DNA of 64,000 bases. Source: Geosiphon pyriformis. Lineage: Eukaryota > Glomeromycota > Glomeromycetes > Archaeosporales > Geosiphonaceae. A program made the position numbers and the translations under genes. The DNA is taken from assembly GCA_016748015.1 (NCBI GenBank), contig JAAOMT010000502.1, forward strand, positions 314,519-378,518. The letters run 5' to 3'. This document shows positions 4,199 through 64,000 of the stretch, in pieces. Position 1 is the stretch's first letter, and each line of letters opens with the position of its first letter. The notes under the pieces are model-generated. The model was not told the origin of the DNA and did not search any database. It saw nothing but the letters and a program-made list of their open reading frames with translations.

Positions 4199-5469
4199 TT
4201 ATTCAGTTGTAATTTGAATTTCTAATTCTTCAGAGTCTAAAACTTGACCTTTGCTATCATTTCCAGGTAAATTTAAAGCTTTTGTCCAAGGATTCAAATC
4301 ATTAATATCATTATTTAAACCTCGCGTTAAAGTTGAAGTATTACTTTCAAGCTCATTGTTCTGGGAATTTTTCTCTATATTTATTGGGTAGTTATATTCT
4401 GGAAATGAGAGAATTCTAGTACTTTGGATGTTTTGTTTTCTCAATTTCATAATATTTTTTATCCCGTCAGAATCAGTAGGTTTGTAATAAAAACATGGAA
4501 GGAAGCAAGCTGCCGAACGGTGAGCACCAAATATTAAAAATAGTACAATTCCTCTGAAAAAGAAATAGAAAGTCACTAAAAAGAGTAAAAGAAATAGGCT
4601 AACTAATGTTGGTGTTTATTTATAATCAATTTTGACTTACATTATGCTTCCAGTATATTCGGATAAACTCAAAGCATTTGCATCAGGAATTTTTTTAGAT
4701 CTATTTATTATCCTTGGAACCAAGGAAGATAATAAAACAGCAATATAACCAATACAACAAACGTGCAATCGAATCGCTTGACCTAATTTTATCGCTGTGC
4801 CTCTGGTTTGGTTCTTTGAAAATTTCTCCCAATGTCTGATGAGAATGATAGTTGAATGACCTTATTAAAAAATTAATATAGTCAGAAATTTTTTTAATTT
4901 GTGAATTTTTCCAATTCATACTTACCAGTAAACCCTATACAGATTAATGTCACAATTACTGATGGAATTAAAAATGCCAACCAATCCCTATCATAACTTG
5001 TACCCTTACAATACAATCGATTAACATCCACACCCCAATGTTCATATTTACTAGAAATGATCAGCTTGACTCCTTGATACAACGAATTCAATCCCCAAAT
5101 TCCTGCAGATACTTTCCAACCCCATCTTTTTTCTATTGTAATTTCATTCTTCCAAATTCCATACCAAAGATAAAATATGATTGCTAAAGGAAAGATTTGT
5201 ATAGGATGAAAAAAAAATTGTCCAAATTTTTGGGCTATTATGCATAATGATGTTTCGAATGCTTTTTGGCGTAAATTTTCACCATATTTTAGTAATGGAG
5301 GAAGATTTGAAATTTGACTAAAGAATGCTGAAATACATAGCTGGGAAAGCGTCCATTTTGTAAAAAAACCGGGAGATTTATGAATTATTACTAGGAGCAA
5401 AACTAGCAGTGTGGAGCTAAAGAGGTTCAAGACTATGTAAATAATGAGTGGGGGAGAATAGTAAGTCAT
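4199..5469 (-). CDS. seven-transmembrane receptor-like protein, copy A
   Basis: Three exons on the minus strand: 5469-4926, 4860-4641 and 4553-4199, giving 372 residues. Both donors are GTAAGT and both acceptors end in AG; junction phases are 1 then 2. Exon 1 carries five hydrophobic segments, exon 2 the sixth, and exon 3 the seventh followed by a hydrophilic Ser/Asn-rich tail of about 95 residues. A Cys before the third span (motif SLCIIAQ) and a Cys in the loop after the fourth span (NRLYC) could form the disulphide typical of G-protein-coupled receptors. The tail begins FLPCFYY, a possible palmitoylation/helix-8 site; copies B-D have FLPCCYY. Three paralogues with the same exon design lie at 9.2, 15.4 and 18.5 kb. 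Family class is not certain: the Cys plus aromatic pattern of span three recalls cAMP-receptor/Git3-like fungal receptors more than Ste2/Ste3, but this is inference. Confidence 0.8.
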
Positions 5470-8400
5470 CGAATCTTCTTATTTAGAAGCAATAGTAATC
5501 AAATGATAATGATGATAACTTTATCAAATATTCTATTAAAAAAAATTTCACAATTTTTACTACTCCTTTTATATATATATATATATATATATCACATGTA
5601 TCGTAAACTTCGGGTAAATTCTATCGAAACTCAAATATTATGTCTCGATTGAATCGAGACAAAAACGTTTAATTCAAATATATTATATATCATTTGCTCA
5701 CGTTAAAGATGACCTAATCACATGTACATGTATATGGTTTTCACTATTTTTTAATATCTAAATTACAAAGTTACACATTAAATTTCCTTGTGATAAATTT
5801 AGCATATTCAGTATGCATATAAAATAAAACTCCCTTTTTCAATCTCACCTGATATATGAGCTTTTAAAATTCAATGTAAGCATCGATCGTAGAATTTTTC
5901 ATTTATCATAAATATATAACATTAACAAAAAAAGGGTTTCATAGTAATTTTTGAGATTTATAATATTAACGTAAGAATATTCGATAATTTTTATCTTTTG
6001 TAGATATTTAGCCATTTCGTTTTACAAAACTATATTATTTGTCCTTGATAGCTTTATTAAATTATAAATTTGATTATAAGAATCGTCATTAGCTTTCAAA
6101 ATATTTTATTTAGAGATTAAAGATAATCATTTGATTACTTGAATATAAATTTGAATGACTCAAGTTGCCTAAGCCGTTAAATCAAATCCATCCTAAAATA
6201 ATTTCGTGCAGGATTATAGAACTCGCGGTATGAAACCATAAATACAGATCCTCAGTTGTACAAAAGATTTTTAAAGCTTTCACAAAAGCAATCCCAATAA
6301 AGCCTTCTTTCAAAGAAGCTTTTTACCATTAAACATTTTGAGCTTCGCCATAACTATAATAGGATACATGAACGGATATTTCGGATCATTTCTGAATACA
6401 TGAAAAATTTGTGTATTTATATTTTTGCTGATCTATTTCATTATAAACATGTCAGCGTAATTGCCATTTATATCTTAGCTCCCTTTAAAGTTTGTAAACC
6501 ATAAATACCATCAAAGTCAAAGAATATTATGAGAATCGAAATACATTAAACTATAAGAATTAAATTTAAAAAAGAAACAAATAATAATAATAAATATCAT
6601 GCGAGTCTATATAGAATGAAATAATATATATCGAATGACCCGTCTTTATTTATTATTTCAAATGGTCAAATACATTCAAACTTTGTAATCACCTTTTTTC
6701 CGAAAAATGATATTACTTTTATCATTATGAATACAGAGATACAAAATATTAAGGTTAACATATAATAAATAGAAAACAAAATAAGTAATAAATGTATGGA
6801 AAATATATATATATATATATTGATATATTTTGATATATTGATATATTTTGAAAATTATTTTTGATTTATAATAAAGAATAAAGTAAAAAAAAAAAAAAAA
6901 TTTTTTTTAATAATGTATTAATTAATCTTGAAAATATATAATTTTTGTTGACAAATATGATAACTTGTTTACTTTTTATAATAATTTATTGTAGTTTAAT
7001 TGACCACTATGGTTTTTGTTATTTTTTAATCCAATCAATTTTATATTTAAAAAATTTGTTGTTTCATTTATATTTTTAAGTATTTATAATGTATTATTTT
7101 ATTAAAAATTATTTCAATAAATGTTAAATTATTTTAGAATATATTTTTAAAAACCAAAAGTAATTAATCATCGAAATATAAACATTAATAAAAAAAATTC
7201 TTTAGAGCTAACAACAATATTCCTTGATTTTACTAAATTTAAATCAAAATTTTTGTTAAATCACAAAACTAGTACGTTTTTAATCCATAAATCTATGAAC
7301 TTGAACCAATATAATGTAAATTATTCACAAGTCAAGCAAATAAACAAACTTAAAGTAGATTGGAATGCATTAATTGGTTTTATAAAATTCAGCTTAAACT
7401 GTTGGGAGTTAACAAAACAAAAATTTACCATCTTTCCATTAAAGTAAAACTATTCTAGAAACTTGAAATCTAATTTTTTAATTTTTAATTTCTTAATAAA
7501 AATAGTAATTAAACTTTAAAATTTGACAAACAAGGTACCTACTTAACTTTTCTAATCGGCTTTAAATTATTCCAGAGAAAAAAATTGCAACTCCCAAAGA
7601 TATATTTACATAGAAATTCTATTTAATAAATAAATGCTTCTTTTAAATACAGTGTATCACAAAAAAACTTAAAGATCAACAGGCAAAAGTTACCACATGT
7701 AAGACTTTTTTAAATTTCGAAAGCGGAATTAATTTACAACTTTTGATGTAATTTATATTATATATAAATCTGTCGATCAAGAAACGCAGCAAGCAAAAGC
7801 TAATCTACTTCTATAGTGAGGACTGTCAAATTAAGTAAACTATGCAAAAAACAATGAATGATGGAAAATTTGAGCATAAAGGGGGTAATGATCGTCGCAA
7901 TAAAGATTACGGGACACGTAGTAGGTCAATATGTCCCTTTGTCTCTGGAAAAAATTGTTACTAAATCAGATAAACATTTAATATTGTACAATTGGCAGAA
8001 ATTTAAGTTTTTCCTTTGGATATATGAAAAATTTACCAATTACCACGCTAATGTTGACAAAATTTCAAAACAGAAACATGTTGAATGGTCAAATTTCATC
8101 TTAATAATAACTGAAAAAAATCTTACTTGCAATTAAACTTCATTTCATGTAACAGCATGTTGGAGAAGTTAATGAAACACTTGAAAAGAAGTGCCACTTT
8201 CAACAAGGTAAAAATGCCGAGCATAAAAGTCAAGTAGCCAAGGCGTTTGTTTCTTTGGGGGAAAATGTATTTTAAACTTATTGACTGGCCATTGTTAAAA
8301 ACATGAAGTAGAACGATAGATGATTAAATTATGAAATTCTTTGCCAAAAAACTATATTGATCAATTTAATAAATTCAATGTTTGATGCATTGTGAATTGA

Positions 8401-9172
8401 TTATCAAGAATAAAAAGCATATTAAGTTTTACATCAACAACAACAAGCAATATATCAATCATATAAATTTTATTTTTTGTTACACATTGGATTAAATTAA
8501 ACCTTGATAAAAACATATTGATTAATTGAATAAAATCAAACATTATCTTGACAAGATATGAATCCCGGTAATCTTTTTATTTCAAAAGTTTAAAATTCTT
8601 TTTTAATGATAAAATGATCTTGAACTTTCGAAATCGCCTCATGAAAGCTGACGTGACCTATATTCCCTGCCTTTGCATATGCGTTTTTAAAAAATTGACC
8701 CATACAAAAAGTTTATATTTTAAGTTTGAAATCACAAAAAGCAGTTTTTTATGATTTTTCATGAACTTTTATTAAGGAAAATACATTTTATAGTCCATTT
8801 CAAATTAATTTCACAGATATTACTGGTCTTCCTTTGGCAAGATTATATTTCATCCTGGGTACTTAACTCGCAAGTATTGGAGTCTTTGAAACTCTCAATG
8901 TTAAAAGGAAAGTTTAAATTCCATGTGAAAATATTTTATAAATAATTGGGCATCTAAGCTATTTCTCGAGAAACTATTCGATAGATCTAACGGGGGAAAA
9001 TTTCGAAATAACCTTATCTATTAATAAAGATAACATTGGTTTGACTAATAATTGTGTGTAAATTTATGTTACTATACAAATTCTATATCGATTTTATTTT
9101 CATTCTAAGATTAGAATCATAATTCTTGTTTGAACAGATTAATTTGACATGAAGAATAACCCCTTTTTTAAT
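5470..9172. other. intergenic spacer between receptor-like copies A and B
   Basis: AT-rich DNA with a TA dinucleotide tract at about 5570-5592, another TA tract near 6806-6822, and poly(A)/poly(T) near 6887-6908. Apart from a short pocket with coding-like wording at 7842-8275, listed separately, no gene can be supported. Confidence 0.5.
7842..8275 (+). pseudogene. possible remnant of a coding sequence
   Basis: Several short open stretches in different frames read like protein rather than AT noise. One begins MQKTMNDGKFEHKGG at 7842; a different frame, 8151-8274 after a plausible AG acceptor, contains NETLEKKCHFQQGKN and AEHKSQVAKAFVSLGE. The GC content is locally higher than the flanks. I cannot join them into one ORF with convincing splice sites and recognise no family. 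It may be a decayed gene or a chance pattern. Confidence 0.22.
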
Positions 9173-10387
9173 TCAAATGGGATCGAAAGTAGAAACTCTA
9201 AATAAGAAACTACTGGAGGAAGCACTAAATTCATCAACTGAGGGTTCTTTTTCATCACTATTATTGTCCATTTGAGTGCTGTACCATATAGGTTCTGGAG
9301 TTTTTACATCGAGAGTGGTCATTGAATCAACTATTTCCTTATTCGAAATGGCATCATTAGGTTTCAGTGATGGACTTTCAAGATCCCTTCTGCGATCTGG
9401 AGGGGCGTAATAACAACATGGTAAAAACACGGCTGCCGATTTAGTAGTTCCAAAGATCAAGAATAAAACTATTCCCCTAAAAAAAACTAGATATTTATTT
9501 TGTTGTTCAATTAGGAAAAAAAAGTCAATAAATTCTTTGCTTACTGGATACTGCCTGCGTAATCCGAAATTACGAGCTCATTTGGATCAGGAACCTTCTT
9601 GGTTCGCTTAATTAGAGGTGGCAGTAATGAGAACAAAAGGCAACATATATATACGTTGCTAGAAATAGAGAGTCGAACAGCCTGTCCAAGTTTAATTGCA
9701 GTATTTCTATTTTGTCTATGTACATATTGTCGCCAATGTTGAAAGAGCATGATTGTGGAATGACCTTAAAAAGAATCTATGTTAACACAGCCTAGTTAAC
9801 CTTTTTTCTTTATTCATTGATTCATTCATGAACAACTTACTTGCAAGGAAAGCAGCTATCAAACTAAGTATTGCCATAGGTATTAGAAATATTAGCCAAT
9901 TCTGTTTCATATTTGAAGCTGGTCTACAAAACAATCGATTTACTTCGGTGGCCCAATGTTCTTTACTACTTTCTATAGACCAACGAATACAACAACTTAT
10001 GACTGTATAACCCCAAATCCCACCAAATATATATCGAAAAGATTTCTTCTCAATTTCAGTATCCCTTTTATAGAGAGCCCACCAAAGATAAAAGGCAAGT
10101 ACTGCTGGAAACATTTGAAACGATGGAAAGAAGAAGAGTGCTACTTTTTGCTGTATTATACAAATAGGGGTCTCATAGGCTCGCTCCCTCAAAGTGTCAC
10201 CATATATTAAAATTGAAGGCAAACCAGAAAGTTGCTCAAAGAAGGTACTAAAACACAATTGAAAAAGTGTCCATTTTGTAAAATATGCTTTTGTACGAAG
10301 TATCATGGTAATAAGGATTGATAATAAAGCAAGGTTTAAAAACTGTAAAAGAATGTAAAGAATGACAGGCGTTGAATAACTCGGCAT
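9173..10387 (-). CDS. seven-transmembrane receptor-like protein, copy B
   Basis: Minus-strand exons 10387-9841, 9764-9545 and 9476-9173 encode 356 residues. Exon 2 is exactly 220 bases, as in copies A and C, and junction phases are again 1 and 2. The donors are GTAAGT and GTAAGC. Seven hydrophobic segments are visible. The region from span two to span three (GLPSILIYGDTLRERAYETP followed by CIIQQK) is the best-conserved part of the family, with the putative disulphide Cys at the start of span three and its partner in NRLFC. After span seven comes FLPCCYYAPP and then an acidic Ser-rich cytoplasmic-type tail. The start ATG aligns with those of the other three copies. Ligand, G-protein coupling and expression cannot be told from sequence. 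Confidence 0.8.
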
Positions 10388-12570
10388 ATTTTAATGATGA
10401 AAAGTGGAATCGAGGGTTTATAAAAAAAGTGCCACTGACATCAATGATTTTTTTAAAAGTAATTACAAAATGGTTTATTCGAATCTAAACCCAATTGCAT
10501 TTATTGCATTTCAAAATATGAACAAAAGCAAAAAGCCAAGGACCACAAAATCTGCAGGAGTGTGTAATTTTGGGAAAGATCTCTTCTAATAAATATGCCC
10601 GATTTACTTTTAATATGCAATGAAGCCTTTTGTATTCATGAATGTAAAAATTTTCGGATAAATATTAGTCAAATGTTATACAAAGTTTTTGATGCAAAGT
10701 TTAAAAGTATTTCTTGTGTTTAATCAACTTTAACTTATCGTGCGAATGAGCTTCTTAGACCAATTATTTTTACTCAATGACTAAAATAGTTAAAATTTAT
10801 TGAATAAATAACGGTTTAAATCTTGGATAAACAAATTTTCTATCATTGCTTTAATAATAAATCTTTTAAAAAACTTTGCAGTTTACATATTTCTTAAAAA
10901 TTTTGAATAAAAATAAACCTTTATTGTAGCATTTTGGACGTTTAAATGAATCAAGGGATTGTTTGATTCTTTGAAGAAAAATTCAAAAAAGTCCCTTTTT
11001 CAAAATGACTTATCCATAATGGTCGTTTTCACCCATCATAGTTAAAAGGAAAATTCATTAAGCCGCCCTAATATTTCATTTATACACATTAATAACAATA
11101 ATCTACCCTTTTTGTAAATCATAATTAGATTTTTGCCGAACAGATACATTTACAAAATGACAAAAAAAGATAGGGAGGTTTTTCATTGAAACTGAAATTG
11201 TGGTCTATCCCAATATAGAAATAAATGAAGATGATGTGACACCTTTTAATTTCATGCACTATAAGAATGAATCTAATCGTTAAACCAAGCATTTAATATA
11301 TATATATTATTTTGTACTCTATGAATAGTATCTAATTGTTAGGTAAACATTTAATATATTATATGCCCTTGTATAAATTTGGTAATCGTCTATCGCCCTG
11401 TTGTTTTAATTTAAAAGTTTCTAGAATATTAGAATAAACTATTTTTAATCAATAGATTTGGAAAGATTAAGATAAACAATAATCCTATTTAAATCTCTGA
11501 CAATCAAACATACTTTTCTTATTCCTTTTCTTCATAGAACGGTAGTTTTTACCCCGAAATAAACACAATTTACCTAATATTATTATATTGAAAAAAATTT
11601 CCGTTCTTAGCAATTGATCATATTAATACATAAGGAAAAATTTTTTTAAACAAGTGACGAATAGTATATTTTAAAAAATTTTCAGAAAAAAGAAACCGAA
11701 AAATCATTCATTTAACCAAAAATTCAAAAAACTAAAAAATCCTGAATACACTTGAGGAAACCTTTGCCAAGAAAATGCTTTGAGCTGTCACCAATCCTAA
11801 ATTCAACATTATCTAAATAAAATCCAGCATCAAAGAGCTTAATAATATTACAAAGTCGTTTTCAACAATTAAGTTTCATTTAAATTTGGAGTTTCGAAAT
11901 AGAAAACCTTTTTATCAAATATCTTTTCTGACAATTGAAACTATTTTCATGAAATTATGATTTTAAAAACAGATTATGTGTTTTTTTAATTTAGTTCAAA
12001 AAAATTTGACTGTAAAAATTTATTTATTTCCTTTGAGTTTATAAAAAAAAAGGTTTAATATTTGGTACTCTCAAAAACAATACCACTTCTACATGTATTA
12101 AATGAAGAATTGGGCGACCGTCTTATAATGAATTTTAGTTTCAACATATAATCTTTTCCAAAAATTTGGTTTTCAATTTGCAGTTCAAATTATTTTTGAC
12201 CCTAAATCATTGAAAATATTCAAATTCAAGGCACACCTTTTTTAAATTTATTTTCGAGGCACGCAATTTGAAATGTTACTGTAATCGAAATTAGTATTTA
12301 AAAGTTTCTTTTGTGAAACTTTAAAAGCTTAACTTCAGGCTCGTTTGTTAAATGAAACTTTGATATATACAATAGGTATTTGGCTGATTTATAATTTTAA
12401 ATTGAACGATTGAATCTTAACAGTAGATGGTTTAAAATATTGAATTACAATCCTTTTAGCATGAAATGAACACATAAAAGGCATCCGAGCCTTTGAAGTT
12501 TGAAGCTCTGAAGTTACGTTGATTTCTTCTATTCTATTAAAAAAATTTTTTTGAGCTTTACGACACATAC
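10388..12570. other. intergenic AT-rich spacer
   Basis: Upstream of receptor-like copy B and upstream of the Myb-like gene. No conserved coding sequence, RNA gene or repeat array is visible; open stretches are short and low in complexity. Confidence 0.5.
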
Positions 12571-13111
12571 ATGGAGCACCCAATGGCAGTCAAGCAGGAA
12601 GCTGACCAAGGAATGATCGAACGTCAAGATACAATTGATGGGGAGAGTGTAATGTCTTTTTTAAAATTATTATTAATACAAAGTAAACGTATAGTATGTT
12701 TCTATTAGATAACAGCTGGTATGATGAGAAAATAAATTACTTTTTAATTGAAAGAAACCTGCGAAATGTGAAGAGAGATACGACCCAGGCAAGAATTCAT
12801 CTAAAGTACCCCCTACGAAACGACGAAAGGCAACTTTTAAATCTATCAAACAAAAAAAGGAATCTCTATCACTTGAAATGAAGTCCGATCCAGATTTAAC
12901 ATTGACTATAACTAAAAAATCCCTGCCTAAAAAAGGAACCATCTCAACTGGTGGAAAGTGGACAGCCGAGGAGGATAAATTATTGATCGATTGTATTCTA
13001 GGCTTGGTCCAAACAATCCCGTGGCAAGAATTTGTTGATCGGTTTCCCAATCGGGATGTAAAATCCTTGCAGAATAGGTGGTTTCGTTTAAAAAATAAAA
13101 TGAATGGTTGA
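12571..13111 (+). CDS. small Myb/SANT-domain protein
   Basis: Predicted exons 12571-12648 and 12755-13111 give 144 residues. The second exon is the firm part. It has a Lys/Arg-rich region (PPTKRRKATFKSIKQKKES) and then a single Myb-like repeat, with the spaced tryptophans of the fold in GGKWTAEEDKLL, IPWQEF and LQNRWFRLK, ending KNKMNG. This is the pattern of a DNA-binding SANT/Myb domain at the very C terminus. The upstream exon is inferred: ATG at 12571, donor AGT|GTAATG, acceptor GAAAG|AAA, both phase 0. A different acceptor near 12710 would read another frame without the Myb repeat. The frame before 12571 is also open, so the true start could lie further upstream. Function as a transcription factor is family inference. 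Confidence 0.6.
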
Positions 13112-15426
13112 AAATAGGGAGAATCAATTTTTTTACTTTATTTCTGATCTCACGATAATTTTTTAGGCAAAGAACCATTCAGAAAGATTAATATCTTATT
13201 TCAACATAAAATAACGAAACTTTTTCAAATTTTGTTACACATTAACTATTTTAAAGATTGATGGGATATTGGTCAAAAAATAATTTTCAAAGTACTCAAA
13301 TTATCATAAGCGAGTTGAGCGTAGAAACTTTTTTCAAAAAAAGTCATTAATTTAAAATTTTAATCTGTTTAGCCACTTCCTTACACTCAATAATACATGA
13401 GATCTCAGTAGCTTTGTTATAATTTAAAATTTTCAAATTTAATTACGTCATTTAAGAAAAAAGTATACTCGATATTTGTCAAACATTTTAAAATCCAAAA
13501 AAGTAAATTCATCCTAGCCCAACCTTCTTAAACGCTCAATTATTTAACCGTTCTCGGATGAATGAGATTTGGTTCACGCAGTTGAAACTATTTGAGTGTG
13601 ACAAAAAATAATTGGGGCCCAATTACGAATATTTGTTAAAAAATTTTCAAAATGGTATTTTTCCTAAATTGAGTTCATTCTTGTTAATAAAAAGCTTTTG
13701 GTTGAGCATATTTGATATTTGGTTCCCACACTTTTGAAATAATAGTTGTTTTTTAACTGTTTGTTAATCTAAAAATTGATGATAGTCAATAATCAGGAAA
13801 TTTTTTTAAAGCTAACTGAATGAGGTGTTAATCATGTGAGCTAGATTTCTCTATATTTATAAAGGGTAACAATATACAAATTTTGAAATTTTGAAATCAC
13901 ATTTATTTGTAAAAAAAACATCTCTTTTAAAGAAAGTCATTGTTGTCAACATTGATAGAAAAATCCAAAACTGTTTCTGTTCCAATCTATGAAATCTTAA
14001 CCCTTTTTTTTTTACTACCTCTCATTCAATATGAAAAATTCTTAACTTGCAGTTACACGTTTCATACAGATTAGAATATAGAGATTTTAATCTGCAAATA
14101 GTTTATCAAAGTGGTTTTCTTTTTTTTAAGGAGAAACCCTTGTTTGAACTGCAAATTCCTAAACTTTTAACTTTGCTATCTCAGGCTATGCATAATTTTT
14201 AATATCGATCCAATAATATTTCAAATTCTTAAAATTTAAAATTGTGTACTCTATAAGAAATATCTTCGAAACTAAAATTTTTATCGACCCATATATTTAA
14301 AAAAGTTTTATTCTAAAAATTACAAAGATCTTTTTAAAAAACCTAAATATTTGGTAATTTCTTGGTTTTTTGCCTTTTGGATAAACATATTAAAACGTGA
14401 TGAACTAAAATCGGTCTTATAAAAAAATTTGCCTGCATCAAAAGGTTAAATCAAAATTAATTCCGATATACACGTAGTATAAACACAATTTCCTATCGCT
14501 TTAACCTTACAGCAAAATTTTATATGATCTTCTCAAAAGGCAGTTCATTACGTTCTACTAACAGTTTATAAGTTTGATCTTTTATTGTGAAATTTAACTG
14601 GCAGAACTTTTGTATATTTTTAACCCTCGGGGCACATTCATCTACAATTTTCCACGTGAAAAAAACTGAACTGCTGTGCTACATTTACCAGATTTTATGG
14701 AATTTGGCGTGGCCGCAGGCACATAATTGTTATTGTCCCATTAGAATTTAATTTTATATGAAACGGAATTTCATCTTTTCGGGAAAGGATCAATATATGC
14801 ATGCAAATTAAAGTCCTTTTATTATTGATGTATCTGTTCTTGGAAATGAATATTTGCCTAATTTCATTTTCATCACCATAAACATGGTCCAATGATTACA
14901 AACTTAATATATAATGAAACACTATTTATTAATGAATTTTATTTTTCGACCAATGATCAAATTAAATTGAAAAAAGACCCTTAACATCAACAAGTATCTG
15001 GTACAGAATTACTAAAAAGGTAGGAAAACCTTTATTCAAAAGCTCAAAGTCCTAGCATCTGTTTTTAACGGAATTTTTATTAATTGATATCTATATTCCC
15101 ATGCAGGAGAAAAAAAAAGCAACCTAAAAAATGTGTAATAGTGACCTCACAAAAATTTGGTTTCACTAAAAAATATAAATACACTCTGCTTAAACTTTTT
15201 TTTCAACAAAAAAGACAATCCCAGAAAAATATTTTTCTAAATTAATAGTTATTGACTCTTGATACTTTGTCATTCTTTTGCCTTAAATTAGTTGCTCAGA
15301 AAAAAGTTTTATAATTTTTAAAAGTCGACATTTGAAGGCATTTAACTTTTCAAGACTCAACCTTTTAAAAAAAAACTTTAAAGGAAATAGTTAAAAAAAA
15401 AATTCTCCCAGAACCCATTATCTACC
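13112..15426. other. intergenic AT-rich spacer
   Basis: Lies between the Myb-like gene and receptor-like copy C. I see no coding structure, RNA gene or long repeat in it. Confidence 0.5.
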
Positions 15427-16766
15427 ATGCCAACCTACTCACCTCCAATCATCATATATATAATCCTACAATTTATCAGTGTAATTTTTTTGTCAATTTT
15501 AATTTTTTTTATAATCAAATCAAAACAATATTTTGGAAAATGGACTTTATTTCAACTGTGCCTATGTTCTTTTTTTGAAAGCTTCGCTGGCTTACCTTCC
15601 ATACTCATATATGGCGATTCTTTGAAAGAACGCGCATTCGAAACTCCCTTATGCATAATACAAGAGCGAATAGCAGGATTTTTCTATTACCAATTTTTAA
15701 TTTTTCCCGCGGTACTGTCCTTTTATTTGTGGTATGCGTTGGTGAAGAATGATACAGAGATTGAAAATAAGTGTATACGTTATGTTTCGAGTACAATATG
15801 GTTATATGGTGCTGCTTATCATTTTGGCGAGTGGCTTGGTGTTAGAAATGAAAAAAATTGGGGCGTTCAGGCTAATCGCTTGACTTGTGTTACCAATTCT
15901 AGCGGAAAATATTGGATCGCTTGGGTTATACCTGATACTATAATGACTGCTGTTGCCACATTTTTCGCATGTAAGTTGAAATTTAATTTTAATTTTCAAC
16001 CAAATTTCTTTTTGTTTTCGCAAGCGATTGAAAAAAAAAAATTGATTTTTATTTTATTTTATTTAATTTTATTTCAGTTCACTCAGCGATCATCTTATTT
16101 TTGAATTGGCGTAATTTCACAAAAAGACAAAATAGATTTACCGCAATAAAATTAGGCCAATCGCTCAGACTATGCCTCGCTAGCTGCATTTATATTATAG
16201 TTCTATTGGCAGGATTGATACCTAAAGTGGTTCTTAAACTTCAAAATGGTCCAGATCCAGATGTATTAACATCTGCCGATTATTCTGTGGGTGTGTCGTA
16301 AGTAATACATTTATTCTAAACATGAATATAATTAATCCATTAAAAATGCCTGAAGAAAACTCAAATCGAAATTTATTCTTGCAATCTCAATTTTTTTTAC
16401 AGAGGTATCCTATTATTTATGGTATTTGGTACGACACATTCCGCTGCCATCTTTCTTCCATGCTGCTATTACGCACCTCATAGAAAAGCTAGCATATCAA
16501 CGAACGCGGGATCGTTTCATCAACTTGAAGAAAATTCTAAAGACACTGTACACTCTAAAGGGGTGTTGCCAAAATATGATTTAATTTTTATAAAACAAGA
16601 GAATCAATCACGTCCAAAGGTGCTAACGATTATCAGTGAGGTTTTGGAAGAGGATGAAATGTCGGAAAAAAAAAATAGTAATTCATATGCTTATAGGACT
16701 GAAAGTACAATCCAAACGTTAATATCTTCTGGAAGAGATTCCTTTGAGATTGTTGAAATTTTGTGA
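15427..16766 (+). CDS. seven-transmembrane receptor-like protein, copy C
   Basis: The only plus-strand member of the four-gene set. Exons 15427-15970, 16078-16297 and 16403-16766 give 375 residues; donors are GTAAGT at both introns and acceptors TTTCAG and TTACAG. Exon 1 is 544 bases and exon 2 is 220 bases, as in copy A. Five membrane spans lie in exon 1, span six in exon 2 (motif AIKLGQSLRL precedes it) and span seven in exon 3 (FGTTHSAAIFLPCCYYAP). The Cys of ETPLCIIQ and of NRLTC form the likely extracellular disulphide. The tail is Ser/Lys/Glu-rich and unlike those of the paralogues, suggesting divergent signalling or turnover. Without splicing, exon 1 would run on into a hydrophobic intron-encoded stretch ending at 16104, which is a splicing artefact. 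Confidence 0.82.
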
Positions 16767-18523
16767 AATATTAGAATAATTTTGATGGTGTATGTAAAAA
16801 TCAAAACTGATTAAAGAAAAACTGGTCAAAATAAATTTGCTTAAAAGACAAAAAAAATGACTAAAAAAGTTTATATATAACAAAATTCGATTAATTAGAT
16901 TTGCATATTAAATAATAAACCTTATTACTTTAGACAAGATTTTTATTTTCGGGTAAAATAAATTAACCAACTTTCTAATGGTTAAGGTTATTTGAAAATT
17001 TTTGCTTGATTTGTTTTACCATTTATAATTGAGAAATCCTGAAAAAGATATTCGAATGTAAAAACTTGTTTATCGGCTATCGGAGGAAGGGTTGTGATGA
17101 TTGTCAAGGTTGGACGAAACGATTTAACGGAAATAGATTTAATAATATAATTTAACGGTTTTTAAAAGTAAAATCTTTAAATAATTTTTTTAAAATCAAA
17201 TTATAGTGAGGAGAAAAATATTTTTTTTAAAATAAATGTTAAAGTAAAATTTTATTAATTTATTACAATTTTCAAAACCTTTATAGTTTATTTTATTTAG
17301 TTTATTTTTATTTTAATCTTAATTTTAATTTCAATTTTTATTTTTATTTTAAATAACAAAAAAAGCCATTTCTTGATCTTTTTAAAGTATTCGGTAAAAG
17401 TTTGAATCAAATCAATCCCAACAAATTATATTTAAAATTTAGTAAACAAAAATAAAAGAACTCTTTTTTACTGTAATGAAATTTATTAATAAAACGTCCT
17501 TCTTAATTACTTTTATTTGTTACAATAAAAACGGGGTTTATTGACTACCTTGGAAAAGATTTGATAAGAATTAAATTTGAAATAAATTTTTAATCCATTA
17601 TAATTCCCATTTAATCCAAAAAAGCTAAATAGTATAAACATTTTTATTGGATTTCATATAATCACAAACTTAAGAATTTAAATATATTCTCCCAAATGAA
17701 ATGAAAATGAAAATGATATTATCATGTTACATTAAAAATTTGAATTTCAGATTTTTTTGTTTTACTAATGAGGATATTTGAAACAAGTCTAGAACATGAA
17801 TATATATATCATTTCATACTCAAAAAAAAAGATTTTCTATTTTCAATTGGAATTTTCTGTACTTGTTTTATCCAATTTTGGAGTCGAAAGAATTTCTGAA
17901 TTATTCAAAAAATGAGAAAATAAGATTTTGTTTTCCAGAAAGATTTTCAACCAAATTATAATAACTATTTTTGAAATTCAGAAATTAAAAGTTTAAAAAA
18001 TGACTTTTTTTAGTTGAAGAAATGACTTATTTGAAATGAAAAGAGTTCAAGAATAACTTTTTTTGAAATTTGGGGGGGGGAATTTTTTTTTCTTTGAATT
18101 AATTAAGAAAATTTTTATCATCCTGAAAAAATGTTTCATGTTCAAAGAAAACATAATCAGCGGTAAAAACTTTTGAAATGACAATCATCTCAAAATTTAT
18201 AATCTAGTCACATATGAATTTAAAATAATTTTTTGGCAAAAAAATTTTTTGAATTGAGAAAAATACATTAATTTTAACTTTTAAATTAATTTCTTTTAAA
18301 TTGATTTCTTTTAAAACTTTCATTGAATTTTATGTGTGTCCATCAAATTTTCTTAAATTAAGAACCTCAGGATTATTAAATCTCGTATTAAATTTAAGTA
18401 TCTCAGTCTGTTGGCACAGCCAACCTTATATACTTATCAAATTATTTCTGTTTCAAAAAATATACATTAAAAAAATAAATTACAAATTATTACTATTCTA
18501 TTTATTCTAGCTTGATGTTTTAA
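16767..18523. other. spacer between convergent receptor-like copies C and D
   Basis: The two genes point towards each other, so this stretch holds both 3' ends. It is AT-rich with homopolymer runs, including a G run near 18074 that is unusual for this window. No gene is supported. Confidence 0.5.
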
Positions 18524-19823
18524 TCAACCATTATCCAAAATATTAATGGAGTAGTCAATTTGAGTGTCCAAACTAAGTTTACTATTCAATCCTGTTTCAC
18601 TCCCTTCTGATACCGAGTTAAAACCTTGTAGCGTCATCATATCACTATAAAATGTTTCAATTCCGATTTCTTTTTCGTTCATTTCAGGAATAAACAATGG
18701 TTTCATTGGTTCAATCATTCCTGATGCCTTTTCTAAATCTAATCGATTGTTAATTACTGTTTCGATCAAGAGTAAATTGTTTTGAGGTAATTTCGGGTTT
18801 GGCTGTGAGTAATAACAGCATGGTAAGAATAGGGCAACAGATCGTGTGGTACCGAATACCAGGAAAAGGAATATACCACTAAATTAAAAAATCAGATATT
18901 ATCAAATTTTTTGTTAATGTAAATTTTGAAAAATAAAGTTTTAAATTTGAATTCAAAGAACTTACGAGAAACTGTGAGAATATTGAGAAGGGGTCAAAAT
19001 TTCTTCCTTTGATGGTATTTCTTCAATCTTTTGTATCAAAGGTGGAACCAATGACGCGTATATCAGAATGATGTATAATATACTACAAACCTGAAGTCTT
19101 AGAGCATGACCTAATTGAATAGCTGTTCGTCGATTTTGATTTCGCCGAAATACACGCCATTGAGTGAATAAAAGGATGCTGGAATGACCTATGACAAAGA
19201 AAAAGATTAATGTTGAATTTATTTATTTATTTATTTATTTATTTTAAAAAAATGGGGATTTCAATTATTTTTAACTTACAAGTTAAAGCAGATCCAACAG
19301 CAGCCACAAAGATACTAGGTATCAAAAATGCTAACCAATCTCTTTCTTTATTTGATGATTGACAATATAAGTGATTCACCGCCACATCCCAATGCTCACT
19401 TCTACTTGCTAAAGTCCATCTATACGCACAACTTATTAAAGAAGTCATCCATATTCCAAAAGAAATGTATTTACCTACTATTTGTTCAATATTTATATCA
19501 TTTCTTACAGTTGCCCACCATAAATAGAACGAAAGCGAGCAGGGAAATAATAGAAGTGGGTAATAGAAGAATTGCATGAATTTCTGTTGAATTATACATA
19601 TTGGGGTTTGGAAAGCTTTTGAACGAAGGTCATCACCATAAATTAATAGAGCTGGAAGACCTCCCAAATGTGTGAAAAATGCACAAATGCAAAGTTGAAG
19701 GAGTGTCCATTTCACAAAGTAAAGTTTTGATTTTATGAATAGAAAGAAAATTACGATTAACAAAAGAATACTAACAAGATTTAAGCAAATGTATATTAGT
19801 TGTGGTGCTGAGTATAATACCAT
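18524..19823 (-). CDS. seven-transmembrane receptor-like protein, copy D
   Basis: Minus-strand exons 19823-19280, 19188-18966 and 18878-18524 encode 373 residues. Exon 1 is again 544 bases; exon 2 is one codon longer than in the other three copies. Phases are 1 and 2. The first intron contains a TTTA tract. The family signatures are present: KWTLLQLC at the start of span two, GGLPALLIYGDDLR, TPICIIQQKF at span three, a Cys in NHLYC, and FLPCCYY after span seven. The tail of roughly 100 residues is acidic. The start codon sits just downstream (in the gene's direction) of an unusual CAA-repeat leader. Copy D is a receptor-like membrane protein by topology; the ligand is unknown. Confidence 0.8.
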
Positions 19824-19835
19824 TTTCGATATGTT

Positions 19836-19837
<2 letters not shown>

Positions 19838-19873
<36 letters not shown>
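19838..19873 (-). repeat. CAA-repeat tract directly upstream of receptor-like copy D
   Basis: On the plus strand this is a TTG/TGT repeat; read in the direction of the gene it is about twelve CAA units ending some 15 bases before the ATG at 19823. Further upstream the same G-free C/A/T composition continues to about 19930. If transcribed it would be a long unstructured 5' leader. Confidence 0.75.
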
Positions 19874-19874
<1 letters not shown>

Positions 19875-19879
19875 TGTTG

Positions 19880-22080
19880 TTATCGTTATTGTTATTATTA
19901 TTGTTTTTGTTTTTGTTTTTGTTATTATTGAATCTACATTTAAATTTATAATTTTAAAGTTTAAATCATTTCTTTCAACTAATAATATTGTTCAAAGGTC
20001 CTTTTGTCAATTCCACTTTTTTAATTCTCCCCTAGCAATCCTCAAAAGCTAAATGTAGTTGTGAAATTTCTGACTTTAATAAAATATAGTTCTTTTTTCA
20101 CTTTTTCAAAAAGACATCAAAAATTGTAACTGTCGACTTTTCCTATATTTATATTAATCATAATCTTTAGCCTTATCATTTAATTTCATTTTATTATTGG
20201 TCATATGGATTATTAATAACACGATTTAAATTTTAATGATAAATGTCCGATAGATTTGTTTCACAAATACATTTATATGCATTTATCTACTACTATCTTT
20301 TAACATATCTTTTAAATGGGGGTTTAAAAGTTAAAATACATTCCCTTTTCCCTTTACCTTCTCCTTTCTCTTTTAATTTAGATAGATACGACAAATTTTC
20401 TTTTTAGGAAATTTTTAATTTTATGTAATGTTATAACCGTGTACATGTACTAAAATAGTAATTTTTAAAATAATAAAATTTTCAAAAACAGATATTCTAA
20501 TAATAATATTAATAATAATAATATGAATTTCGGGATCACTTTATTCCTTTATTTACAAAATTTATCTTTTTATTTTACATCTATATTTGTGATAGAAAAT
20601 TATCAATTTGGATAGTCTCAAAAAAATTCGGTTCTTGTCGCGGTTAATGTGCAAATATGTGTGAAATTATAATAGTCGTGCTTGGAATTAATTTCAAGAC
20701 CATAGCCCCTTATCAAGATTTATTATAGAAAGTTCAGTAAAGGGATAACAAGAATCATTGAATTTCTTGAATGAAACAGGCTTGATAAATGAAATTTTTG
20801 CCCCCTTTGAATCGGAAAACTTTTAGCGTTAAGTCAATTTGTATTTAACATAGAAATTTAAATTGCGGGTATAAAAAATGGTTTGTCGCCGTTCCAAGCT
20901 GACTTGCCACAATTCTGCTTTTATTGAATTTATAATTCAAAGGAGGTGAATTTTTCCACATGGTTTTTGATAGTGAAAATAGGTCTAAAATAGGATTATC
21001 TATAATTTATCTACTGTATATCTAAATTCTCATCTCGTTTCTGTCATGAGTTCACCAACATTATCCAAAAAGATTAAGAAATTGGTATGATCATATCGTC
21101 AGACATTTTTTAATTATTATTATTATTATTATTATTATTATCAAAAGTCTCACAAAGTATTGTTACACTTCGGGAGTGGTTAACCTAATTGAGAAATATT
21201 TAGAGTAATTTTAATTTGTTCATCTTGTTACACCACATACTGCTCTTCAATAAAGAACACGTTTTTACGATTTTCACAAAGACATCCCCTGAGTACCTTA
21301 GATCTATTTAATTTAAACCGTCTTGTGTGTCTTTGAATAGCGAACCTAATATAAGTAAACAAAGACTTTGATATTAAATGATTCGAAATGATCAAAAGTT
21401 ATTTGTTATTTTTAATGTTAGTTTTAGCCACATTTCCAAAATGGGAAAGATTCGAATTTTTGAAAATCAAAAAAGAATTAAAGAATTGCTGCGTGTAATA
21501 ATATTCAATCATAAAAAAAATTCTCGGAGATATGAATTCCATATAATATGATCTAATTTTAAAACCCAAAAAAAGTTTTATGAAAATGTTATGGCCTGAA
21601 TTACAAATTTCCCCCGATTGAGATTTGGAATATGTGGTTTCGTGCCCCAAAACAAAATATCAATTATTCTACTAGCATTCTAAACCTAATTTAGGTCAAT
21701 TTTGATTTGAGACAATTGTTTTACCAAATAGAAAATTTTTTTCATTTTAATTTTTTCTCTGTAAATTTTTTAAAGTGTATTATTCTCATCAACAAAACTT
21801 GAATTTAATCAAACTTTCTCTATTGATAAAAAATAATTATTTCATTTTATTTTATTTATTCATTAAATGGTTGAAAAATTTATAAATTTATCCATTTATG
21901 AATTTACCATTGCTCAATCAATTAAAACCACCTAAATTAACTTATATTTAATTTTCAATGAAATCTTAAAGAAACATACAATTATTAATATTTTAATATG
22001 ACATACTAGGATCAAATCTTGTTTGTGCAAGAAAATCTTTAAGTTTTAGGTTGGTAAATATCTTGGACAAGAAATTAATT
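19880..22080. other. 5' flank of copy D and intergenic DNA
   Basis: Contains an ATT microsatellite at about 21113-21141 and AT-rich sequence with no supportable gene. Short open stretches, for example near 21400-21650, are low complexity. Confidence 0.5.
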
Positions 22081-43300: not shown

Positions 43301-43838
43301 GACTCTTGAAAGATAAAAACAAAATCCTTGATGTGCTTAAATAGAAAACTTTTTATTCTCTATGCTTATTCAAAAAACGAGGTGTTTAATAGCTATCCCA
43401 ACCTAGTTTGAAGAAGTTCCTTTAATGTTTCATTCTCTTTCTTGAGTTTTTCATTTTCTTCTTTCAATTGCATGATGAAAGATAAAAGTGAGTTAATTTC
43501 ACTAAGATTTTCTGTTTGGCCTTGACTGTTAATCCTCTGATCTGTTAAATTCGAATTAGGAATAGATGTGAAGGATTGATTTTGGTTCAAGGGTAAAAGT
43601 GGTTGATTATTTAGCTTAAAGATTCCTGGTGTATGATCTGTTACAATCATTTCGTCAAGAAGTGGGTTCATAATGTCTTCAAAATTTTGAGTCCCCAAAG
43701 GATCAAAAGAGGAAAGTTCTCGGGGAAGATTCAAAAGGAAATTTTCAAGTGAAGCATAGTTTGAATTAAATCTTTCATTAAAAATATCTTTTGCATTTCT
43801 AGCGAAGTCTTTTTATGCACTCTTGGCACTCAAATATA
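43300..43838 (-). pseudogene. 5'-truncated inverted copy of the HMG-box gene
   Basis: Read on the minus strand, this matches the 3' two thirds of the HMG-box gene at 54800-55489 and some 80 bases of its 3' flank. The open part (43734-43393) differs from the intact protein at only four of the last 99 residues, so the copy is recent or has been homogenised. Before that the frame is broken: the stretch encoding DAYKKLARDAKD has indels and a stop, and sequence upstream (with the DNA-binding core PPNAFIIYR) is missing altogether. The homology ends at about 43838, next to an integrase relic. It cannot encode a DNA-binding HMG box. Confidence 0.85.
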
Positions 43839-46278: not shown

Positions 46279-47785
46279 ATGCATGCAGTGAATTCCGAGT
46301 GCAAACTTACAATAATACAAGTTGGTGAAACATACGGAGAAAAAAAACTATTTGAAGCAAGTTCTTTCATATTAAAAGAGCGATCAGAATATTTCAATAC
46401 AGCATTATCGAGTCAATGGGCAATCAGGAAAGGAGAAAATTACTTTTTTCGAAAGCCAAATATCTCATCAAAAGTTTTTGAAATGTTATTAAGGTGATTA
46501 CTTAAAAAAAATTTTTAGATACAAAGATTTTTCTTTGTTAAATGAAATATTTGATTAATGTCAGATTTCACTTTTCTCTAGATCTATTTATCATGAAGTT
46601 GTCGATTTAATCAGATATGATTCCTTGACGTGGCTAGAACTTTTGATAGCAGCCGACGAAATGATTTTTGAAACACTACTCAACGAAATCCAAACATTTT
46701 TCATTCAAAACACAAATCTCTGGATTAACCTTTACCTAGTACAAGTTCTTAACACTGTGTTTCCACGAATAGCTTGTTCACGCCTACGAAATTATTGTAT
46801 CGAAGAAATAATAGAACGTGATGCGTCCAAACTTTTTAATTCTCCAAAATTTATTCAGGTTGAAGTACCAATTTTATTGGAAATTCTAGTCCGAGACGAG
46901 ATTGGAATTCATGAAATTGATCTTTGGAAAAGTTTGGTTAGTTGGGGGCTTGCTCATCCTTCGGCTGAGCAACTCAAAATAAATGAAAAGACGTTGAAAG
47001 AAAATGAAATGAATCACTTTCAATTAAAAAAATCATTTATTGATTTTATACCTTTTATTCGCTTCTTTCATATTTCGTCAGTTGATTTTGAAAAATCCGT
47101 GAAACAATATGTTGAAATCCTGCCAGAAACTCTGGTTAGTCAGTTGAGCAGATACCACTTTTCTAATTTCCAACCAGAAATGACAGAGTTATTACCTTCA
47201 CGAATTCCTCCAATCCTAATTGACTCCAATATAATTCGTCCTAAACATGCGGCACAAATTGTCGCTTGGATAGAAGGAAAAACTGATTTTCATGATATTA
47301 AAACTGATCTTCTTTCATCATATCGATTTAAAAGAATTTATCGGTCAAGTGATCAAGGAATCTCTGGAAAAAGCTTTCACAAAAACTGTGATAAATCCGG
47401 CCCAACAATTGTAGTGGTAAAATTAAAAGGCACTGATCAAATCTTGGGTGGTTATAACCCAATTCGAAATGGATGGCAAAGAGTCTGGTTTTCAACAAAT
47501 CGGGATAAAAAATCGGGGTTCTTATTCTCTTTCGATAACGGAAAAAATTTGCAAGGTGCTCAATTAAGCAAGATTATAGAACATCAATTCGCGACGTATG
47601 ATCATCCATGGGATGGTCCGTGTTTTGGGGTAGGTCCTGATTTATGGATTAGTATTAATAATAAGCAACGGATCGGGCAATCGATCAGAAAAACATATCA
47701 AGAACGCTTAAGAGCCAAGGAAGGATTCTTCTTTTGGGATGATTGGGAGGTGTTCCAGATTGGGAAAAATGACAATTTCAACTAG
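46279..47785 (+). CDS. BTB-BACK-TLDc domain protein, copy 1
   Basis: Two exons, 46279-46493 and 46582-47785, encode 472 residues; donor AAG|GTGATT and acceptor CTCTAG|AT join in phase 2 within the BTB fold. Residues 5-95 are the BTB/POZ domain (IIQVGE at the start, ILKERSEYFNTALSS, FFRKPNISSKVFEMLL). A helical BACK region follows to about 245. Residues 289-470 are a TLDc domain: FKRIYRSSDQGISGKSFH, GPTIVVVKLKG, ILGGYNP, GPCFGVGPDLWI, and EGFFFWDDWEVFQI at the end. BTB-BACK proteins serve as substrate adaptors of CUL3 ubiquitin ligases; TLDc domains bind V-ATPase or act in oxidative-stress resistance. The combined role here is inference. Such genes are strongly amplified in Glomeromycotina. 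The start is the first ATG; the frame upstream stays open for some codons without another ATG. Confidence 0.88.
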
Positions 47786-50871: not shown

Positions 50872-52357
50872 TCAACCCCTTTTTTTCAACACTTGAAATA
50901 TCTCGCAATCATCCCAATAAAAGTACCCTTCCGTGCCTCTCACATTTCCTATATACGTTTTTTCTACTGTTTGTCCAATCTTTTTCTCAAGGCCGGTACA
51001 AATCCATAAATCTGGTCCCATTCCAAAACAAGGGCCACCGCCAGGATGATCATAGATTCCACAATTTCTTTTCTTTGGTAAAATTTTGCAAATCTTTGCT
51101 TTATCTAAAGTTTGACGGTCGGTAAACGAAAATAAAAACCCCGTCCGATCACCACGAGCTGAAGAAAATCGTCCATGTTTCCAAGCTGAATTTAGTGGAT
51201 TATATCCGCCAATAATTTGTTTGCTATTTTTTAATTTTACTACAATAATTGTGGGGCCGACATTTTTGCACTTATTGTAAAAGGTTTTGATGGATCTTCC
51301 ATGAGTGCTTGCTCGATAGATGAGACAAAATTTTATGTATAGAGGAGCTTCAATTTCAAATTTTCCTTCAATCCAAGATGCGATTAGCGCTGCTTGTCCC
51401 GACGTGATTATTTCTGATTCAATCGGTATGTATTTTTGTCTTGGTGGTTTTGGTTCAAAATAAAGCGGTTTTTTATCAGTAAGTTGCCATCGCACAAAAT
51501 CACCGATTAAATATTCCGGTAATATTGATGAAAATGGACGAACTTCTTTCTCAAAGTCCATCAAAGATATGTCAAAAAATCTAATCCATTGCAACAGGGG
51601 TGCAAGTTTTTCTTTCAGTCCCCAAAATTCTTCTTTTTCCCATTCTTCCGGTTGATAGGTTGTTGTATTTTTTAACCGAGAAGAATTAGGAACATTCGCA
51701 ATTCCCCATATCACCACCTTTTTCCAAAGATCAATTTCTCTTATTCCTAATTTATCGCATTTTACAATTTCTTCAAGTGCTTTTTCATTTAATGCATTGA
51801 AATCCGGTGAATTGAATAGCAGAGATGGATTTTTCTCTATTGCATCTTTTAAGCAGTAGTCCCGTAAGTCGGTACAAGTTGGTCGTGATACAACAGCATT
51901 AAGGACTTGAACTAAAAGTGAAGAGATCCATTGATGCGGATGGCAAAGAAAATGAAATTGAACGTGGTTGAGTACATTATCGAATAGCATTTCATCAGCT
52001 GCTAATAGAAGATCGAGCCAGGTGGTGGGTGAATAGGTGGATAAGTCGATCAGACTCAAGTTCATGAAGCTGTAAAGTTAATGCATTTTGAGAGGTCTGA
52101 CAAAATAAAACATTTGAAACTCTAGGACTTTGAATAACTTACTCTAACAAAATCTGAAACGCCTCAACAGAAACGTTTGGTTTCTTGAAGATCAACCTTT
52201 CCTCATCAGGTCTTTTTTGTGCCCACCAAATTGACAAAGCAGCTTTAAAATACGGGGAATGACGCGTCAAGATTTCAATATTTGTCTCAAATTCTTTAGT
52301 TTTGTTTGGTGGTTCACCAATTTCGATGCACACATTAAAATCATTATGTTTTATCAT
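50872..52357 (-). CDS. BTB-BACK-TLDc domain protein, copy 2
   Basis: Minus-strand exons 52357-52143 and 52069-50872 give 470 residues. The first exon is 215 bases with a phase-2 donor (GA|GTAAGT), identical in length and phase to copy 1, which supports the ATG at 52357 rather than the open codons before it. Domain order is BTB (FNVCIEIGE, HSPYFKAALSIWWAQ, IFKKPNVSVEAFQILL), BACK (WLDLLLAADEMLFDNVLNHV onwards) and TLDc from about 298 (AALIASWIEGK, YRASTHGRSIKTFYNKC, IIGGYNPLN, GPCFGMGPDLWIC, GYFYWDDCEIF). It differs considerably from copy 1, so the pair is not recent. It faces copy 1 across a 3-kb spacer. Role as a CUL3-type adaptor with a TLDc cargo or effector domain is family inference. Confidence 0.88.
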
Positions 52358-54717: not shown

Positions 54718-54799
54718 CCCTACATAAATTTTGCTCATTAGATCCCTTGAATCGAAATAATTATATTTACTAAAAGAATCTTTGAATAATAATAAAAAT

Positions 54800-55489
54800 A
54801 TGTTACCACAAAATGATTCTCTTCAAGCCACTTCAGATACAATAAATGGGCTAATGCAAATTCCATTTAAACCAACTTATCCACCTCTTCTTACTATCAA
54901 TGACCTAATTCCACGAGTTACACGCAAGGGAAGAACCCCAACTAAGCCCCCAAATGCTTTTATCATTTATCGAAAAAACTACACGTCTGAGATTAAAACC
55001 AAAAAAATTTCAATTGACATGTCACAAGTTTCATCAATTGTTGGTCAATTATGGAAGGAAGAAGCAGAATTCGTTAAGGATGCATACAAAAAGCTCGCTA
55101 GAGATGCAAAAGATATTTTTAATAAAAGATTTAATTCAAACTATACTTCACTTGAAAACCCTCCTTTTGAATCTTTTAATCAGTTGGATACTCAAAATTT
55201 TGAAGACATTATGAACCCACTTCTTGACGAAATGATTGTAACAGATCATACACCAGGAATCTTTACGCTAAATAATCAACCACTTTTACCCTTGAACCAA
55301 AATCAATTCTTTACATCTATTCCTAATTCGAATTTAACAGATCAGAGGATTAACAGTCAAGGCCAAACAGAAAATCTTAGTGGAATTAACTCACTTTTAT
55401 CTTTCATCATGCAATTGAAAGAAGAAATGGAAAAACTCAAGAAAGAGAATGAAACATTAAAGGAACTTCTTCAAACTAGGTTGGGATAG
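54800..55489 (+). CDS. MATA-type HMG-box transcription factor
   Basis: A single-exon gene of 229 residues starting at the ATG at 54800; the frame is open a few codons further up but without an ATG. Residues 46-112 form an HMG box of the MATA_HMG/Sox type: TPTKPPNAFIIYRK for helix one, SSIVGQLWKEEAEFVKDAYK for helices two and three, then KLARDAKDIF. HMG boxes bend DNA through the minor groove. A linker rich in Asn/Gln and Pro follows, and the last 35 residues (IMQLKEEMEKLKKENETLKE) form a leucine-rich coiled coil for dimerisation. In fungi this family includes mating-type regulators; in Glomeromycotina it is hugely expanded, so a mating role cannot be assumed. A truncated inverted copy of this gene lies at 43.3-43.8 kb. 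Confidence 0.9.
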   Translation: MLPQNDSLQATSDTINGLMQIPFKPTYPPLLTINDLIPRVTRKGRTPTKPPNAFIIYRKNYTSEIKTKKISIDMSQVSSIVGQLWKEEAEFVKDAYKKLARDAKDIFNKRFNSNYTSLENPPFESFNQLDTQNFEDIMNPLLDEMIVTDHTPGIFTLNNQPLLPLNQNQFFTSIPNSNLTDQRINSQGQTENLSGINSLLSFIMQLKEEMEKLKKENETLKELLQTRLG

Positions 55490-62768: not shown

Positions 62769-64000
62769 ATGTCAATTTCAATTTTAAAACGATTTTCCAG
62801 TGATATTAGCCTTATTCTAAAATTCAAAAAAGATTTTGATGTAATCATACAAGTGGGTGAATCACCAGATGAGGTTCGTACTTTTCATGCGCATTCATTT
62901 ATCCTGCGCGCTAGATCTGCCTATTTCAATGTTGCCTTGTCGACTTGTTGGGCGGATAAGAAAGGCGATGTGTATTTTTTCAAGAAACCAAATATTTCTG
63001 CACGTGTCTTTGAGCTATTGTTAGGGTGATTATTTTTATATTTGTAAACAAAATCTTTTCTTCATTTCTTCAACATGTTTTAATCTTCAGTTTAACGGCT
63101 TTATCAATTAGATATATTTATACGGGAACAATTAAATTTACTAAACTCAAAGCCAAAGACCTCCTTGGTCTCTTAATCGCAGCTGACGAATTAATATTGG
63201 AAGAATTAATAGATAAAATTCAAAACTACCTTATAAATAACAAACCAACGCTAATTGATGAATACTTGATCGAAATCTTGAACAAAGTTATTTCACGTCC
63301 GACCTGCCAAAAATTACTGGATCACTGTCACGATGAGATAATTTGTCGCAATCCAAACACGCTATTTAAATCGAATTGTTTCTCAAAATTAGAGGAATGT
63401 ACCTTACAAACGATTCTTGAATTCGACGATTTGCCAATGAAAGAAATTGAGATCTGGGATCAGCTCTTAAATTGGGCCAAATTGCAAAATTCAAGTACGG
63501 ATAAGAAACCCGTAGAAGAGTTCACAACAATGGATTTTATTTCGGTTCAAAAGACACTTGAAAATCTTATACCATTTATAAGATTTTTTCAAATTAGCTT
63601 TGACGATTTCAACGAGAAAATTCTTCCATTTAATAAGTGCCTGTCACAGAAATTATTTTATGAAATTTTGAGTTTTCATATCGAAGGAAAGCCACCAAGC
63701 TCTTTCAAGATTCAACCTTCAAGGATTCCGGCAATCAAAATTAACTCAAAATTGCTCAAACCCAAACACGCAGCTTTACTGGCAACTTGGATGAAAATTG
63801 ATTCTCCAACTCGTGAAACGAACCAATTTGAAGTACCATATTCATTTCGTCTTTTGTATCGAGCAAGTGAAGACGAAGTCTCACCTAAAGCTTTTCATGA
63901 ACGATGTGACAAATCAGGACCAACAATCGTTGTCCTAAAGATAAAAAATAGCGAGCAATTAATTGGTGGATTTAATCCGATTGTAAATGGATGGAGGCGA
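62769..64000 (+). CDS. BTB-BACK-TLDc domain protein, copy 3 (cut by the window end)
   Basis: Exon 1 is 62769-63025 (phase-2 donor GG|GTGATT, the same type as copy 1) and exon 2 runs from 63112 past the window edge; 382 residues are visible. Unlike copies 1 and 2 it keeps a longer N terminus (ISILKRFSSDISLILKFKKD). BTB follows (DVIIQVGESPDEVRTFHAHS, ILRARSAYFNVALS, FFKKPNISARVFELLL) and, across the intron, YIYTG. BACK covers the middle (LLGLLIAADELILEELID; SRPTCQKLL). The TLDc domain begins about residue 310 (KPKHAALLATWMK, FRLLYRASEDEVSPKAFH, GPTIVVLKIKN, LIGGFNPIVNGW) and is truncated only by the window, not by mutation. An alternative acceptor at 63090 would not keep YIYTG in frame. Same adaptor-type inference as the other copies. 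Confidence 0.88.

Follow-up and report, generated by a model that had tools for sequence, protein, structure and literature searches.

The stretch of Geosiphon pyriformis DNA analysed here, a window of 64,000 nucleotides (C114:314519-378518, contig JAAOMT010000502.1, in an assembly of 124.7 Mb and 406 contigs), carries a cluster of related genes for seven-span proteins, copies A to D, which probably encode plasma-membrane G protein-coupled receptors (GPCRs) forming a divergent subfamily related to STE3 (class D-like). This reading is based on intact spliced frames, seven hydrophobic spans whose loop charges fit an outer N-terminus, a predicted fold that is GPCR-like over spans 1-5, constraint in the protein core, a sequence signal towards STE3 and an intron shared with it. 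The initial annotation of the window had described a real cluster, and described it well, while comparing the proteins with cyclic-AMP (cAMP) receptors and Git3; the class was misassigned, and the family is larger and older than stated.

Gene models and family size

All four genes in the window are built from three exons. Copy A lies on the reverse strand, with exon 1 at 4926-5469 (544 nt, spans 1-5), exon 2 at 4641-4860 (220 nt, span 6) and exon 3 at 4199-4553 (355 nt, span 7 and the tail). The corresponding exons of copy B, also on the reverse strand, are found at 9841-10387 (547 nt), 9545-9764 (220 nt) and 9173-9476 (304 nt); those of copy C, on the forward strand, at 15427-15970 (544 nt), 16078-16297 (220 nt) and 16403-16766 (364 nt); and those of copy D, on the reverse strand, at 19280-19823 (544 nt, the exon used for the better of two AlphaFold models), 18966-19188 (223 nt) and 18524-18878 (355 nt). 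Splicing reproduced the exon sizes, the intron phases 1 and 2 and the protein lengths (372, 356, 375 and 373 aa) that had been proposed for the four copies, and the eight introns all started with GT and ended with AG. The spliced frames of A-D, as well as those of the further copies E and F, were open up to their stop codons. A CAA repeat at 19824-19990 on the reverse strand, immediately 5' of the copy D start codon, reads as polyglutamine and has no in-frame upstream methionine.

The cluster itself was confirmed, but not its size of four, since genome searches with copies B and D detected a fifth copy, E, outside the window and about 0.9 kb before its start (C114:312404-313622, exons of 544, 220 and 226 nt), so that copies A-E lie within about 22 kb. 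The same searches recovered copy F on C270 (exons of 535, 220 and 172 nt) and, on C98, the diverged copy G. Querying the genome with the family consensus yielded another diverged copy, H, on C311 (E 6.2e-4); its exon 1, used in turn as the query, retrieved copies F, C and B (E 9e-5 to 0.006), and it contains the YGD and CxIQ strings of the family. The family therefore has at least eight members (A-H) in this genome, all counts from genome searches being lower bounds. A match on C96 (E 0.058) was discarded, as it fell in a simple-sequence-rich stretch with masked runs, and none of the 16 and 88 pattern-matching stretches in non-fungal genome contigs and viral contigs was confirmed as a relative. 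In intron 1 of copy E (C114:312948-313095), the donor site is directly followed by a long run of purines (G/A), a feature not observed in any other copy.

Topology, conserved motifs and divergence

Exactly seven maxima were present in the mean hydropathy of A-F, in agreement with the seven spans originally described; the single-sequence plots were less clean, with 5 to 9 segments above the cut-off used. Mean net loop charge in A-F was +2.7, +0.6 and +5.2 for the cytosolic loops and 0, +0.5 and 0 for the outer ones, a positive-inside pattern that fits an N-terminus outside the cell. The proposed cysteine pair (Cys76 and Cys154 in copy B numbering) was invariant in A-D and in all eight members of the family; a cysteine at the start of span three together with another in the loop before span five is common, not universal, in GPCRs. 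The FLPC(C/F)YY motif after span seven was present in A-F (6/6), copy G has FPCIKL at this position and copy H was read only short of the site. The signature around spans two and three, given as GLPSILIYGD, is exact only in B and C, copy A having NLPPLLKYGE and copy D GLPALLIYGD.

The contrast drawn originally between constrained spans and unrelated tails was borne out. Among A-D, whole-protein identity was 38-45%, whereas the core (up to FLPCxYY) was 43-52% identical and the aligned tails 11-20%; for A-F the core values were the same and those of the tails 11-33%. In the core, the proportion of nonsynonymous differences (pN, 0.31-0.38) was lower than that of synonymous differences (pS, 0.62-0.81) in all 15 pairs of A-F, with synonymous change near saturation; in the tails, where the alignments are doubtful, pN was 0.49-0.66. 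Despite its separate contig, copy F was no further from A-E than these are from one another, and the branch order was not resolved in a tree of A-G plus STE3 (H left out). Near-saturated synonymous change combined with 43-52% core identity indicates that the family is old and constrained. Within this genome the copies are star-like in their relationships, which speaks against a recent burst.

Predicted fold

Structure prediction was performed on exon 1 only (spans 1-5), with two AlphaFold models, one led by copy B and the other by copy D. The D-led model (predicted local distance difference test, pLDDT, 70.7; predicted template modelling score, pTM, 0.64) showed helices over spans 1-5, with span two broken into two segments, together with a beta hairpin of two strands (143-148 and 151-156) before span five, at about the second conserved cysteine. 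The 50 listed of its 599 Foldseek matches all bore GPCR titles, with probabilities of 0.90-1.00 and E-values of 0.006-0.22. The 50 matches listed for the B-led model, all with E above 0.5, comprised 46 GPCRs by title, one entry titled simply as a peptide receptor complex and three non-GPCRs. The D-led model favours a GPCR fold for spans 1-5, naming no class, and the initial description of receptor-like seven-span proteins agrees with the GPCR-type fold predicted for the part that was folded.

Two Pfam matches of family consensus proteins, to 7tm_1 (E 8.6e-4) and Frizzled (E 3.3e-3), were rejected because two of six reversed or shuffled controls scored better (TMEM128, 2.1e-4; 7TM_GPCR_Sri, 6.2e-4).

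Relation to STE3

A genome-wide search with the Pfam STE3 model (PF02076) detected a single STE3 gene, on C303, whose protein matched with E 5.4e-71. The hidden Markov model (HMM) of A-H gave this protein 17.6 bits, a score attained by none of the 1986 local shuffles reported out of 2000 made (best 13.3), and -2.9 bits when it was reversed. In hhalign, the A-H profile and STE3 aligned from the loop that precedes span five through span seven, with a score of 42.0, a probability of 76% and an E-value, calculated for a database of one, of 2.3e-5; the A-F profile scored 37.7, compared with at most 25.4 in 200 shuffles.

Gene structure pointed in the same direction. Intron 1 was found at the same alignment column and in phase 1 in A-H and STE3 (9/9 genes), and both were kept in all eight further alignment settings, five with all nine genes and three with fewer. 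On a rough calculation (289 residues, even spacing assumed), the chance of the one STE3 intron falling on one of the two family sites and phases would be about 2 in 870. The span-seven intron of A-F is also present in G, displaced in one alignment setting (E-INS-i), and absent from STE3; a further intron is common to G and H. The spans of the family and of STE3 are collinear, both cysteines and the span-five proline align, [Y/W]GD precedes span three in both, and GIxLFxxFG in span seven is shared by five of A-F (copy F has GT). In contrast, the C303 STE3 has neither the KWTL at the beginning of span two nor the FLPC(C/F)YY end found in A-F, and eight family genes stand against one STE3 gene. 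Taking the profile scores together with the shared position and phase of intron 1, these sequences are best read as sharing common descent with STE3. Matches to STE3 on C348, C404 and C301 were dropped, as no receptor-like forward frame was seen among those read (at least 60 aa).

A number of results count against STE3-related receptors. By the Pfam definition the family falls outside STE3: the Pfam model gave no match to A-G with E up to 10 and missed two family consensus proteins, the genome-wide PF02076 search listed C303 and none of A-H, and a genome query with the STE3 protein (E up to 10) missed every one of A-H. Copies A-G reached no Pfam cut-off at all, their weak matches being far below any. 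The comparison rests on one STE3 sequence and varied with the profile: the profiles of A-F and A-G each gave STE3 10.4 bits, a score attained by 3 and 4 of 1980 shuffles, respectively, leave-one-out scores ranged from 10.3 to 23.5 bits, the composition-bias correction in the A-H score was large (10.5 bits), and hhalign probabilities over three profiles were modest (32-76%). As for the fold, the B-led first model was poor (pLDDT 58.9), no Foldseek match of the D-led model fell below E 0.001 among the 50 listed of 599, and these superpositions were loose (root-mean-square deviation 7.4-13.2) and spread over adhesion and rhodopsin-type receptors, with no class singled out.

Alternative explanations

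One alternative is that A-H are GPCRs of another or a new class, in which case coincidence or a general GPCR resemblance would account for the sequence signal to STE3 and for the intron in common. The failure of the Pfam STE3 model on A-G and the consensus proteins, the absence of a favoured class in Foldseek and a signal that comes from a single STE3 sequence and becomes modest when the diverged copy H is left out are all compatible with this explanation, which we nevertheless regard as unlikely, considering that the cAMP-receptor-like (cAR-like) GPCRs of the same genome obtained no comparable score, that the A-H profile had no matching PDB chain with E up to 10 (0 matches), and that intron 1 has exactly the same column and phase in 9/9 genes. 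A non-receptor function for these seven-span membrane proteins, as a transporter, enzyme or scaffold, is improbable: it would accommodate the lack of any Pfam match above cut-off in A-G, the partial fold with its modest E-values and the three non-GPCRs among the 50 listed matches of the poorer, B-led model, but not the 50 listed matches of the better model, GPCRs by title throughout, the cysteine pair with a hairpin before span five, or the STE3 sequence signal.

The original hint of a cAMP-receptor or Git3 class was not supported by the profile comparisons. Although cAR-like genes exist in this genome (Dicty_CAR, eight matches, four over the cut-off) and both families have a cysteine, recognised by eye, at the start of span three, the A-H profile scored -3.0 to -8.4 on all seven cAR-like proteins tested (of eight loci, L067 was left out since its frames look like a carrier), the reverse test gave at most 2.4 bits, and hhalign scores of 14.8-18.8 were under the reversed-STE3 control (19.2). 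Neither Dicty_CAR (PF05462) nor Git3 (PF11710) had a Pfam match in A-G, and the genome-wide Git3 search, which matched nothing anywhere, is uninformative on the family; we consider membership of either class extremely improbable. The remaining proposal is a special case of STE3-related receptors, and the two overlap in probability: a basidiomycete-like pheromone/receptor mating locus, with tandem STE3-type receptors and pheromone genes. STE3-related receptors in tandem on one contig, with an HMG-box gene at a distance of about 35 kb, would suit such a locus, but HMG genes are numerous in such fungi. A 30 kb scan for CaaX-ended short open reading frames, which would miss pheromone precursors with introns, gave one strict case, in the range of 0-2 obtained in 20 simulations, and none of ten homeodomain matches was on the contig of the cluster, leaving a mating locus very improbable.

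Genomic setting

The G+C content of the window, in 2 kb steps, ranged from about 12 to 36%. Six of ten other scanned frames had a Pfam match: a Myb, a weak GH5, an asparaginase, two TLDc and one HMG-box. The Myb-like DNA-binding frame (12752-13111, forward strand) lies between copies B and C and is the sole other scanned frame within the cluster. The HMG-box gene is found at 54761-55486 on the forward strand; an inverted frame about 11 kb off (43393-43812, reverse strand) is near-identical by eye to its C-terminal half and looks like a recent duplicate of it, shorter in the listed open frame. Three diverged TLDc/BACK-type frames are present within 18 kb (46559-47785, forward; 50872-52077, reverse; 63014-64000, forward), the first two matching Pfam TLD and the third being recognised by eye only. 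Elsewhere in the genome, the cAR-like (Dicty_CAR) genes form a separate set on C207, C143, C401, C238 and C369, of which C401 and C238 each carry two loci.

Possible mechanism and comparison with known systems

If A-H are STE3-related receptors, a disulfide between Cys76 and Cys154 would tie span 3 to the loop before span 5, and an outside cue would bind the helix bundle and cause it to rearrange. Coupling to one of the G-alpha proteins of the genome, in which 10 of 12 matches to the G-alpha model were over the cut-off, on three contigs, could then take place through the basic third cytosolic loop together with the end of span seven; the signal might pass onward to the mitogen-activated protein kinase (MAPK) or the cAMP-protein kinase A (PKA) pathway, and the divergent tails may set turnover or kinase regulation. 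That several old receptors have been kept side by side suggests a separate cue for each of them, which may be a root-derived compound, a lipidated peptide or a self signal.

A bolder extension, which we hold to be doubtful, is that these genes represent an ancient, so far undescribed, STE3-derived family of arbuscular mycorrhizal (AM) fungi, arranged in tandem and acting as sensors of root signals or of self and non-self. Among the titles and abstract openings listed from the open-licence literature, no description of this family was found. If the proposal holds, the STE3-derived array would fill a gap in the receptors through which AM fungi perceive root signals or their partners, and if the host is, as its composition and gene neighbours suggest, an AM fungus, the eight genes would be a concrete list of candidates for ligand screens. 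In a 2013 survey of AM fungal genomes, one STE3 copy only was reported and no peptide pheromone gene was found, the remaining pheromone receptors still having to be characterised (PMC3834313). A review of nutrient signalling raises the possibility that AM fungi perceive plant signals via Gpa3 and GPCRs, the available section naming no receptor (PMC8401276).

Three known systems offer comparisons with A-H, all by description rather than by sequence. The candidate trisporic acid receptors of Rhizopus microsporus are likewise orphan GPCRs in an early-diverging fungus, although they are reported as class C (PMC5705715). Schizophyllum commune has retained, in addition to its mating receptors, the pheromone-type receptors brl1-4, which have been proposed to act in growth direction and self-recognition; three of these four are at a mating locus, whereas none was recognised here (PMC8161036). 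CgSte3 of the root-infecting fungus Colletotrichum graminicola, reported as the a-pheromone receptor itself, is also reported to sense maize root diterpenoids, so that a STE3 receptor can sense root compounds (PMC12445352). Taken together, the diterpenoid sensing reported for CgSte3 and the self-recognition proposed for the brl receptors suggest that root and self signals are both possible cues for A-H.

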